From contig NZ_CP084742.1 in NCBI RefSeq assembly GCF_020520285.1, forward strand, positions 2,170,001-2,234,000: a DNA stretch of 64,000 nt, written 5' to 3'. Both the position numbers and the translations under genes were made by a program. Source of the stretch: Pseudomonas sp. L5B5. GTDB lineage: Bacteria; Pseudomonadota; Gammaproteobacteria; Pseudomonadales; Pseudomonadaceae. Each line of letters opens with the position of its first letter. Position 1 is the stretch's first letter. Positions 5,632 to 52,748 of the stretch are shown piece by piece. The notes under the pieces are model-generated. The model had not been told where the DNA came from, searched no databases, and saw nothing but the letters and a program-made list of their open reading frames with translations.

Positions 5632-5722
5632 GCAGCAGCAAAGCTTGCTCGCGATAGCGGTGTGACGGTCGACATCGGGTGTTGAATGTCACTCCGTCTT
5701 CGCGGGCAAGCCTCGCTCCTAC
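5632..5722. repeat. REP-type inverted repeat between prpC and acnD
   Basis: GCAAAGCTTGCTCGCGAT near 5638-5655 is matched in inverted orientation by CGCGGGCAAGCCTCGCTCC at 5701-5719. Both are arms of the common fluorescens-group REP sequence (GTAGGAGCGAGGCTTGCCCGCGA type). The 192-base gap between prpC and acnD contains this repeat and no recognisable gene. Confidence 0.75.
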
Positions 5723-18734: not shown

Positions 18735-18987
18735 AGGTTTTTTTCAGAATTTTCATGCGCTTAAGCACTTTTCTGGTTTTCAGGGGCTGCGCGCGCCTGC
18801 GGCACAAGGCAAACCGGCCAATCTTCGGCCTGGCTCACTCCAGCCCTGCCGCTCATCTTGCACGGCCCGGCGGGTGGCGCGGGTTGCTCGCCTGGCCTGG
18901 GCCTGACTCATCAGTCAGTCACGGCGCTTTACCGGGCCAGTCATGGTGGGTAACGTCTGCTGCACTTCTAATACAAGGAATTGCGTC

Positions 18988-19677
18988 ATGAGTGAGTTGA
19001 TTTCCTACCATCTAGAAGACGGTATCGCGACCCTGACCTTGAGCAACGGCAAGGTCAATGCCATCTCCCCGGACGTGATTGCTGCCTTTAATGCCGCGCT
19101 GGACCAGGCCACTGCCGACCGTGCAGTGGTGATCATCACCGGCCAGCCGGGGATTCTGTCTGGCGGCTACGACCTCAAGGTGATGACCGCCGGCCCTAGG
19201 GAAGCAGTGGCCCTGGTGACCCTGGGCTCGACCCTGGCTCGGCGCCTGCTGTCCCACCCATTCCCGGTGATCGTGGCCTGCCCGGGGCACGCCGTGGCCA
19301 AGGGCGCCTTCCTGCTGCTGTCGGCCGACTACCGCATCGGTGTCGAGGGCCCGTTCAGCATCGGCCTCAATGAAGTACAGATCGGCATGACCATGCACCA
19401 CGCCGGCATCGAGCTGGCCCGTGATCGCCTGCGGCGCTCGGCCTTCCATCGTTCGGTGATCAATGGCGAGATGTTCGACCCGCACAGCGCCGTGGATGCC
19501 GGCTTCCTCGACAAGGTGGTCAGCCCCGACGAGCTGCAGGGCGCCGCCCTGGCCGCGGCGCGCCAGTTGAAGAAGATCAACATGGTGGCTCACAAGAACA
19601 CCAAGCTGAAGGTGCGCAAGGGTCTGCTGGACAACCTGGACAACGCCATCATCGAAGACCAGCAACACCTGGGCTGA
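18988..19677 (+). CDS. Crotonase/enoyl-CoA hydratase family protein
   Basis: 229 residues with the crotonase fold: GIATLTLSNGKVNAISPDV, then GILSGGYDLKVM (oxyanion hole strand), KGAFLLLSADYRIG and FSIGLNEVQIGM. Compared with FadB, the second catalytic glutamate is kept (LNE) but the first (in GGGCE) is a Phe in AKGAF, so simple hydratase activity is doubtful; isomerase, hydrolase or another crotonase reaction is possible. The ATG at 18988 has AAGGA about 8 bases upstream. It is monocistronic and followed by a terminator split by a repeat element. Confidence 0.88.
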   Translation: MSELISYHLEDGIATLTLSNGKVNAISPDVIAAFNAALDQATADRAVVIITGQPGILSGGYDLKVMTAGPREAVALVTLGSTLARRLLSHPFPVIVACPGHAVAKGAFLLLSADYRIGVEGPFSIGLNEVQIGMTMHHAGIELARDRLRRSAFHRSVINGEMFDPHSAVDAGFLDKVVSPDELQGAALAAARQLKKINMVAHKNTKLKVRKGLLDNLDNAIIEDQQHLG

Positions 19678-19715
19678 TACGCCAGGCCTGCTGGACCATG
19701 GCCCGGCCCTGCGCC

Positions 19716-19884
19716 GTAATGCTGTTCAGTTAAGTAAATTGTAGGAGCGAGGCTTGCCCGCGATGGACATGGGAGCGCTGCGTTTATCCAGTAAACACGC
19801 GCTACCGCTGACGGCCATCGCGAGCAATTGAGCGTCGACCGGCTGCTCCTACGGGGATCACCTCGCTTAACTGATCGGCATTAC
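19716..19884. mobile_element. 169-bp inverted-repeat element, copy A, inside a terminator hairpin
   Basis: Ends GTAATGCTGTTCAGTTAAG and CTTAACTGATCGGCATTAC are imperfect inverted repeats (2 mismatches in 19). The interior carries GTAGGAGCGAGGCTTGCCCGCGATGG and the inverted relative ending in CTCCTAC. No coding frame. Flanks: GGCCCTGCGCC (19705-19715) and GGCCCTGTGCC (19885-19895), direct repeats with one mismatch. Removing the element and one repeat leaves GCCCGGC-CCTGT-GCCGGGC followed by TTTTT, a complete terminator for the upstream crotonase. Copies B and C lie at 27983 and 38723. Transposase-less; would need an enzyme encoded elsewhere. Confidence 0.75.
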
Positions 19885-20047
19885 GGCCCTGTGCCGGGCT
19901 TTTTATTGCCTGCCCCGCACCTTGGTTCATCACGCCGAAAGATCCGCTCAAACATCTGTCTTCTTGCCACCCTGCGCGGCAATTGCCGAAAAGAGTGCAC
20001 ATTCGTACACTGCGCCACCTTTTTTCCCCTGCGCGGTGACCGTTCAA

Positions 20048-27982: not shown

Positions 27983-28140
27983 TAATGCCAGTCAGTTAAG
28001 CGAGATGATCCCCGTAGGGGCAGCCGGTCGACGCTCGATGGCTCGCGATGGTCGTTAACGCTAGCGCGTATTGACGGGATAAACGCAGCGTTCTGAAGTC
28101 TATCGCGGGCAAGCCTCGCTCCTGCATAACCGATCGGCAC
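27983..28140. mobile_element. Inverted-repeat element, copy B (degenerate)
   Basis: Begins TAATGCCAGTCAGTTAAG, contains GGTCGACGCTCGATGGCTCG, GATGGTCGTTAACGCTAGCGC, GATAAACGCAGCG and GCGGGCAAGCCTCGCTCCT in the same order as copy C, and ends CGATCGGCAC. The right end is more diverged than in copies A and C. Flanks AGCGCC (27977-27982) and GGCGCT (28149-28154) are complementary, as if a hairpin after the cytochrome gene had been split. Confidence 0.65.
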
Positions 28141-28227
28141 GAGCCCTGGGCGCTTCCTTGCACCAGCCCTGCATGGTCGCCAGGGTTGGATAGGGGACTG
28201 GCTATCACCTGCATAGCCAGAGTCGAT

Positions 28228-38691: not shown

Positions 38692-38722
38692 GTCGACGCC
38701 CTGCGAAAAGCCCCCATATGGG

Positions 38723-38892
38723 GTAATGCTGTTCAGTTAAGCAAGGTGATCCCCTGTAGGAGCAGCCGGTCGACGCTCGATTGCTCGCGATGGTCGTTAA
38801 CGGTAGCGCGTGTTTACTGGATAAACGCGGCGCTCTGAAGACCATCGCGGGCAAGCCTCGCTCCTACCATTTCCTTAACTGAACGGCACTAC
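38723..38892. mobile_element. 170-bp inverted-repeat element, copy C, inside a terminator hairpin
   Basis: Begins GTAATGCTGTTCAGTTAAG, identical in 19 bases to copy A, and ends CTTAACTGAACGGCACTAC. It is flanked by direct repeats CCATATGGG (38714-38722 and 38893-38901). Removing the element and one repeat restores AAAAGCCCCCATATGGGGGCC followed by TTTTT, a strong bidirectional terminator between ETF-QO and the convergent AraC gene. The interior resembles copy A in inverted order. Confidence 0.78.
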
Positions 38893-38921
38893 CCATATGG
38901 GGGCCTTTTTCTTTCCAGCGT

Positions 38922-52016: not shown

Positions 52017-52610
52017 AAGAAAAGGTCTGTTCGGGGTCAAAATCGAAGGCGCGTATTATGCCTAACTTGCACCAAAATGCACGGATCATCCATCGTTGCT
52101 GCGGCTTTCGACACAAAAACCGACCCGCCAAAAGCCCTCGGACAGGCCTGAAAAACCCGATACAGGCCGAGAATACAGGGCCGGCAGCGGTTTCAGAAAA
52201 AAACACCAGGTGCTCCCCTGCTCCGGATCAGACTGCAAGGTCTCTAGATCCTCACAACGCAAACCCAACAGCGCTACAAGCCTGGCCCTTGACGAAAAAC
52301 ACGCGCTCAGTCGCGCTTTCATGGAGCGTGGATACCCGGATAGCCCGCTCGAACCAGCCCCCAGATAGGGACCACGAGCCCGGCTGCATCAACCTGAATT
52401 TGAGAGCAATGGCGGCGACCACCCGGTGACCGTCGATACTGCCGAGAGCAGGCTCAGCAGGACAACGTCCTTGAAAGAAAGGGAAAAATGCAGAAATCCG
52501 CCGAATATACGGGTAAAACCCATTCCTGGAGCGCAACTGAGAACCCAAGCGAAGCGCGCGTATTCCAAATTTGTTTAAGAAACGCGCAAGGCCAACTGGA
52601 CTGAACCCGA
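52017..52610. other. Long gap between the TetR gene and rgsA
   Basis: About 590 bases with no convincing gene. A minus-strand frame (52252-52620) would encode 122 residues from a TTG with no ribosome binding site, and its product is not recognisable. I see no repeats. Sequence is less GC-biased than the flanking genes. Confidence 0.5.
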
Positions 52611-52630
52611 TCCTGATCAATACTTGAACT

Positions 52631-52748
52631 GTCGGCGGGACATCTCCCCCAAGTGAAACGCCGATATAGGTACCGAGGGACCGCGTGCCTAAGTTTTACT
52701 CCTAATGGTCTTAACCCGGATTCACCCCCCAGAACCCGGGTTTTTTTT
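52631..52748 (+). ncRNA. rgsA: Small regulatory RNA RgsA
   Basis: Predicted 118-base transcript ending in AACCCGG ... CCGGGTT plus eight T (52713-52748). A sigma-S-like -10 element CAATACTT (52618-52625) precedes it. Length (about 120), orientation and position between a TetR-family regulator and tatD match RgsA (P16) of Pseudomonas, an RpoS-dependent small RNA. The middle has CGGCG ... CGCCG pairing (52633-52668). Identity rests on synteny and architecture, not on an alignment. Confidence 0.75.

Follow-up and report, generated by a model that had tools for sequence, protein, structure and literature searches.

Directly behind an enoyl-CoA hydratase/crotonase gene of Pseudomonas sp. L5B5 lies a short inverted-repeat element that sits between the two halves of a terminator hairpin. 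The locus raises the question of what kind of element this is, and whether its position in a terminator is an accident of one copy or a habit of the family to which it belongs. The window, as we call the whole stretch of DNA analyzed, comprises 64,000 nt of the L5B5 genome.

An element has split the crotonase terminator

The features of the locus are as follows (window coordinates).

18943..19677, plus strand: enoyl-CoA hydratase/crotonase gene, 5' of the split terminator (Pfam ECH_1, E 4.1e-28)
19701..19707, plus strand: left half-stem of the terminator, GCCCGGC, pairing with 19893-19899 in the RNA fold
19704..19716, plus strand: left copy of the target duplication, 13 bp, CGGCCCTGCGCCG, from direct-repeat comparison
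19717..19883, plus strand: IS4-subgroup miniature element (MITE), 167 bp, with a REPIN-like core, from end matches in the window and genome
19717..19734, plus strand: left terminal inverted repeat, TAATGCTGTTCAGTTAAG, an end type shared with IS-length elements and E. coli IS4
19741..19852, plus strand: REPIN-like core, two inverted REP-type palindromic units, GTAGGAGCGAGGCTTGC ... GCTCCTAC, from inverted pairs
19866..19883, minus strand: right terminal inverted repeat, TAATGCCGATCAGTTAAG, an exact match to the left end of E. coli IS4
19884..19896, plus strand: right copy of the target duplication, one mismatch, CGGCCCTGTGCCG, from direct-repeat comparison
19893..19904, plus strand: right half-stem of the terminator, GCCGGGC, and T-tract TTTTT, from the sequence and RNA fold

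The element is non-coding, with 18-bp inverted ends, and the inverted arms 19701-19734 and 19866-19899 are 34 nt long and 85% complementary. When the flanks are joined without it, they form GCCCGGC-CCTGT-GCCGGGC-TTTTT, precisely the terminator that a sequence-only reading of the window had predicted, with a folding energy of -16.3 kcal/mol. That reading had described a 169-bp element between 11-base repeats with one mismatch. The single mismatch stands, but the sizes become 167 bp and 13 nt since other copies fix the end at TAATGC: the preceding base is G at the crotonase copy and C at copies 47644 and 3849703, and therefore belongs to the flank.

The empty site is preserved in the nearest relative found, G293, whose crotonase is 95% identical as protein and is followed by CATGGCCCGGCCCTTGTGCCGGGCTTTTTATT, an intact terminator with no element. 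Its loop is one base longer than that of the joined site; otherwise the stem is complete. The joined site thus equals the G293 terminator bar one loop base, which does not fit a hairpin insertion of the IS1272 type, with part of the stem deleted and no duplication. The prediction of an empty site with an intact hairpin held in G293, the extra loop base aside, and finds no backing in G208, where no comparable terminator was found at the crotonase locus (L237). Among 24 other same-genus relatives, seven keep recognizably the same terminator (L077, L079, L080, L083, L086, L089, and L091), and the others have a different terminator or one that is absent or weak by the criterion given below. With the 13-bp repeat and the intact G293 site, the proposed insertion of a transposase-less element into a terminator loop with target duplication is borne out: the intrinsic terminator of the crotonase gene has been split by it.

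IS4-type ends enclose a REPIN-like core

IS4 of E. coli MG1655 begins with TAATGCCGATCAGTTAAG and ends with the complement of TAATGCCAGTCAGTTAAG, and both forms are present among the end matches of the L5B5 genome. The right end of our element is identical to the left end of IS4 at 18 of 18 positions, and the left end is of the same type with two differences. A 19-base end query with up to three mismatches matches four times in the window, at both ends of two elements, where 0.01 matches are expected. Across the single-contig 6.81-Mb genome, the 18-base end pattern has 35 matches with at most one mismatch, against none for the reversed pattern; with up to three mismatches there are 79, against four. 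These reversed-pattern controls rule out a chance resemblance of the ends.

In another genome, ends of this type enclose an intact 443-aa transposase (locus L041) with Nterm_IS4 (PF13006) and DDE (PF01609) domains. Its single ORF carries the YREK signature YQERWEIELGFRDIK, spaced Y-2-R-3-E-6-K, as in the IS4 subgroup. The same end type borders further IS copies in other genomes; those transposase relatives that carry names are from Pseudomonas, and the transposase matched no solved structure by sequence. Within L5B5, an IS4-type end borders a transposase remnant of 150 aa with an Nterm_IS4 domain at 226461, and no intact IS4-type transposase was found in this genome with a Pseudomonas query at E 1e-60 or an E. 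coli query at E 1e-5. The remnant, at about 226.5 kb, is followed by a frame (L016:1582-2263) matching an ISL3-type transposase (PF01610).

Because its ends are those of IS4 and border IS4-type transposase genes elsewhere, we assign the element to the IS4 subgroup as a MITE: it is short, multicopy, and without a transposase gene, and has IS4-type terminal repeats and a 13-bp duplication, within the 10-13 bp expected. Movement in trans by an IS4-type DDE transposase is most likely, and only a remnant of such an enzyme is found here.

Between the ends, inverted pairs and the RNA fold show that two REP units in opposite orientation form a hairpin, the architecture of a REPIN core. The REP-type unit also stands alone at 5706-5722, with no CAGTTAAG end adjoining. 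By a loose motif test, in which a six-base core is enough, a REP-type core is present in 27 of 28 L5B5 MITEs and 26 of 33 other MITEs (first-count sites; see below). This frequency would suit a REPIN of the ordinary kind, mobilized by a REP-associated tyrosine transposase, its IS4-like ends being incidental. We consider that account highly improbable: the 9-13 bp duplications sit at the IS4 ends rather than at the REPs, some MITEs combine IS4 ends with a non-REP core, and the 58-bp element at 5669498 consists of two ends with no REP core. That element (L035) and another of 59 bp (L232) hold little beyond the two ends, which suggests that ends alone suffice for movement.

Among the MITEs with IS4-type ends (L214-L233 and L184-L213), the REP-type cores differ between genomes of the genus, and a few (L214-L216 and L184) have a non-REP palindromic core. 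One L5B5 copy (L118, at about 3729929) has a REP-type core unlike the other copies read from this genome, and it too lies in a terminator-like site. Repeated capture or exchange of cores seems likely among these MITEs. Capture by two insertions around a REPIN was dropped as a route, since neighboring ends would face the wrong way.

Copies in the window, the genome, and the genus

Two further copies in the window had been taken as hints of a family that recognizes terminator hairpins.

38713..38910, plus strand: copy B, with duplication CCCATATGGGG at 38713-38723 and 38892-38902, element at 38724-38891, and T-tract at 38906-38910
27983..28142, plus strand: copy C (our own identification), 160 bp, with 10-bp duplication CCCTGAGCGC/CCCTGGGCGC

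Copy B bears the hint out. It adjoins the 3' side of an ETF-ubiquinone oxidoreductase gene and splits a terminator; 16 of 18 relatives have a terminator 3' of the orthologous gene, in one case 87 nt away. Copy C does not, as its target fails the terminator criterion. The window also holds an RgsA sRNA at 52546-52739 (Rfam RF00628, 187.9 bits).

In the whole genome, 40 forward and 8 reverse places were inspected among the 79 end matches, and the 73 loci entered gave 28 distinct copies with both ends and a duplication. The duplications are 9-13 bp long, two of them 9. The pairing of these ends with this core is rare: among 298 sampled genomes of the genus, the right junction of the element occurs in four, with 32 instances in L5B5 and 5, 1, and 1 in three others. 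IS4-type ends without mismatch occur in 109 of the 298.

Targets of the wider family

A hairpin at the insertion site is by itself uninformative in GC-rich DNA. Of the window positions, 28% of those outside ORFs and 46% of random ones pass on a hairpin alone; 20 of the 28 L5B5 copies lie in some hairpin. We rejected that test and used T- and A-tract requirements, since a hairpin alone proves nothing. A site was scored as terminator-like when a hairpin was centered at most 2.5 nt from the center of the duplication and either 4 or more of the 7 bases after the hairpin were T or 4 or more of the 7 before it were A. The hairpin needed a loop of 3-9 and a stem of 5 or more with no fewer than 3 GC pairs and no more than one mismatch, G-T pairs being permitted.

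By this criterion, 32 of 33 sites of Pseudomonas IS-length elements (1282-1429 bp, some decayed, in two sequence groups) are terminator-like, as are 9 of 11 E. coli IS4 sites, 15 of 28 MITE sites in L5B5, and 21 of 37 other MITE sites. Both an A-tract and a T-tract are present at 28/33, 8/11, 9/28, and 11/37 sites, respectively. Control positions pass far less often: 6.7% of 5318 non-ORF positions (all from this window), 3.7% of 5000 random window positions, 4.2% in a 16-kb E. coli stretch, and 5.6% when the sites are shifted by 30-45 nt (816 tests). For both tracts together, the corresponding values are 0.38%, 0.06%, 0.24%, and 0.5%. These data support terminator targeting at the level of the family, with the IS-length relatives more faithful than the MITEs. 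Counting against a terminator preference are the 13 L5B5 MITEs, copy C among them, and 16 other MITEs that miss the criterion. The sequence-only reading had named a majority of copies outside hairpins as the result that would speak against its proposal, which survives only narrowly in L5B5 under the strict criterion.

Within each group, the counts include a site once. The loci entered numbered 50 for Pseudomonas IS elements, 55 for other MITEs, and 24 for E. coli, the last hand-picked from the 60 rows listed of 2739. Left out were loci without both ends (at most 3 and at most 5 mismatches), those with a duplication score below 2, and repeats of one site; of the L5B5 places left out, 6040692 and 6094474 are terminator-like by eye and 237396 is not. 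A first count had also merged look-alike targets, giving 29/30 for IS elements and 21/33 for other MITEs, with 15/28 in L5B5 and 9/11 in E. coli unchanged. It had used a hand list that named five loci at bamD and adhE; only L150 among them was left in the E. coli list. Since a merger of similar-looking targets might conceal REP sites, repeats were removed in the reported counts by outer flanks only. Sites within one group come partly from the same genomes, and one old insertion enters two of the groups, as L174 (G293) and as L109 (L5B5).

A preference of this kind might arise if insertion were random and only intergenic copies persisted, terminators being common between genes; the tail-to-tail bias of P. 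fluorescens repeats has been ascribed to such selection (Silby et al. 2009, PMC2718517). We regard this as very unlikely here. Intergenic survival alone would not center the duplication on a loop, whereas at the scored sites the centers of duplication and hairpin coincide within 2.5 nt, and the 30-45 nt shift brings terminator-like sites and the class with both tracts down to the control levels given above.

The E. coli IS4 sites include regions 3' of glgP, pdxK, bamD, fumB, adhE, and metK, by annotation and junctions. The IS4 site of MG1655, which several of the retrieved E. coli strains have in common, fails the criterion, as do one in-gene E. coli site and a single Pseudomonas IS site. Functional terminators are not all that the criterion admits, since the in-gene E. 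coli site in yicI passes. A search of the class for IS4 relatives at E 1e-50 returned 0 of 369 genomes but had no positive control and is thus uninformative; we therefore claim the pattern for the genus of the window and for E. coli.

About 13 of the 37 other MITE sites are, by eye, in REP-like sequence; one of these passes the criterion, compared with 20 of the remaining 24. They comprise L194, L195, and L199, together with L186, L204, L206, L220, L221, L222, L228, L229, L230, and L233, where the target is a REP palindrome of type GGGCTTGCCC. An earlier, loose pattern had placed 10 of 33 other MITEs in REP-like targets. Terminators are thus not the only palindromes hit, and the REP-palindrome sites represent a shift of target, in some genomes, among MITEs with closely similar ends.

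What is recognized at the target

IS-length elements of both genera mostly have A at positions -14 to -10 and T at +10 to +14 of the duplication center, and where both runs are present, the A-to-T spacing is 17-21 nt at 19 of the 24 sites in Pseudomonas and at 8 of the 9 in E. coli. When right arms are permuted among sites (first-count sites), the arms native to each site pair better in every group, with z = 4.5 for L5B5 MITEs, 11.5 for Pseudomonas IS elements, 8.6 for other MITEs, and 4.4 for E. coli IS4. The dyad therefore belongs to each site and is not merely shared sequence.

We conclude with high confidence that the element belongs to the IS4 subgroup as a non-autonomous MITE, most likely moved in trans by an IS4-type transposase that inserts at dyads of the kind found in terminators. 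In the model we propose, the target would be a dyad composed of an A-tract, a GC-rich half-stem, a loop, a second half-stem, and a T-tract. A staggered cut of 9-14 bp centered on the loop would then duplicate the loop and the tip of the stem; we infer this order of steps. Intrinsic terminators naturally have this dyad-and-tract form, which would explain why the subgroup lives largely within them.

How much of the dyad the transposase reads can be viewed in two ways. In a variant compatible with our conclusion, only an A-tract, about 20 bp, a T-tract, and a weak palindrome are recognized in the duplex, and neither hairpin extrusion nor transcription matters. An older target rule for IS4 is AAA-N20-TTT, of which we found no statement in the open literature. 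The form AAA-N15-24-TTT is present at 24 of 30 Pseudomonas IS and 9 of 11 E. coli IS4 sites (first-count sites), and at the in-gene E. coli sites (VL7S7 and yicI) the A and T arms are retained and the dyad is weaker. On the other side, arm pairing exceeds what shared base composition gives in all four groups, although terminators are palindromic in any case, and MITE sites in REP palindromes are without A and T tracts. We give this duplex variant slightly less than an even chance. A bolder proposal, which we put forward tentatively and think rather doubtful, is that the transposases read terminators as such, through the A and T arms together with a hairpin that is extruded or formed during termination, and that terminators serve them as a dedicated safe haven; the REPIN-like core of most Pseudomonas-group MITEs examined would then be kept because it rebuilds a long terminator stem once the element has inserted.

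Probable consequences for transcription

Being an inverted repeat, the element leaves the outer half-stems able to pair across it. In the predicted RNA, nine outer-arm pairs form at the crotonase site and 14 at copy B. The right flank alone folds with -7.7 kcal/mol at the crotonase site and -0.6 kcal/mol at copy B, so the long-range pairing would matter at the latter. From the RNA folding of these two copies, termination probably survives the insertion, which would make for a soft landing.

The IS4-type elements themselves look insulated from outside transcription, judging from the sequence of their ends. In all 16 loci inspected, a terminator lies at most 110 nt from the left end, just before the transposase start (L041, L042, L045, L047, L051, L053, L054, and the nine below); in L054, no ATG directly follows it. 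The corresponding terminator of E. coli IS4 is ATCCGGAAACG-loop-TGTTTCCGGAT-TTTTTT-ATG. At nine loci (L044, L141, L153, L062, L063, L065, L129, L134, and L137), the right end is likewise a hairpin with T's reading inward. An element at the end of a gene meets read-through transcription, and these end terminators look like barriers to it. Protective hairpins are present in other IS4-family elements.

Relation to known systems

IS4 is reportedly found in the pheST attenuator, according to an older paper, and the link between the IS4 subgroup and terminators may therefore already be in print. We recognized no statement of terminator targeting by the subgroup in the open literature surveyed. The subgroup that includes E. 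coli IS4 (De Palmenaer et al. 2008, PMC2266710) shares the end type and the 10-13 bp duplications seen here, and its single-ORF DDE transposase with YREK signature is present in the relative L041; the L5B5 element differs in that it lacks a transposase and has a REPIN-like core. The same paper describes a spectacular specificity for target arms in some elements and treats the preference as conserved arms, and the word "terminator" is absent from its main text. REPINs share the core of two inverted REP units, which here is enclosed by IS4-type ends, and "IS4" and "terminator" are absent from the main text of their description (Bertels and Rainey 2011, PMC3116915).

IS1272 / TnSha1 is a precedent for the targeting of terminator hairpins: as in our case, an insertion sequence enters hairpins, several of them terminators confirmed by RNA-seq (PMC4923244). 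Unlike the element here, it removes part of the stem without duplicating its target, and no primary sequence specificity is reported for it; in our case the duplication covers the loop, the A and T arms are conserved, and the empty site has its full stem. ISRm22, an IS4-family element that enters palindromic REPs, resembles the REP-type sites of the other MITEs noted above but belongs to subgroup IS4Sa, and its target is a REP rather than a terminator (Tobes and Pareja 2006, PMC1525189). Group IIC introns differ in being retroelements that insert after a terminator hairpin, not into its loop.

Reading the target arms of IS4 as the A-tract and T-tract of a terminator gives them a biological meaning, explains where these elements are located, and is open to test. 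Insertion sequences, REPINs, and transcription termination, usually handled apart, are connected by it, and it suggests that transposon-extended terminators stand at some gene ends in these bacteria.
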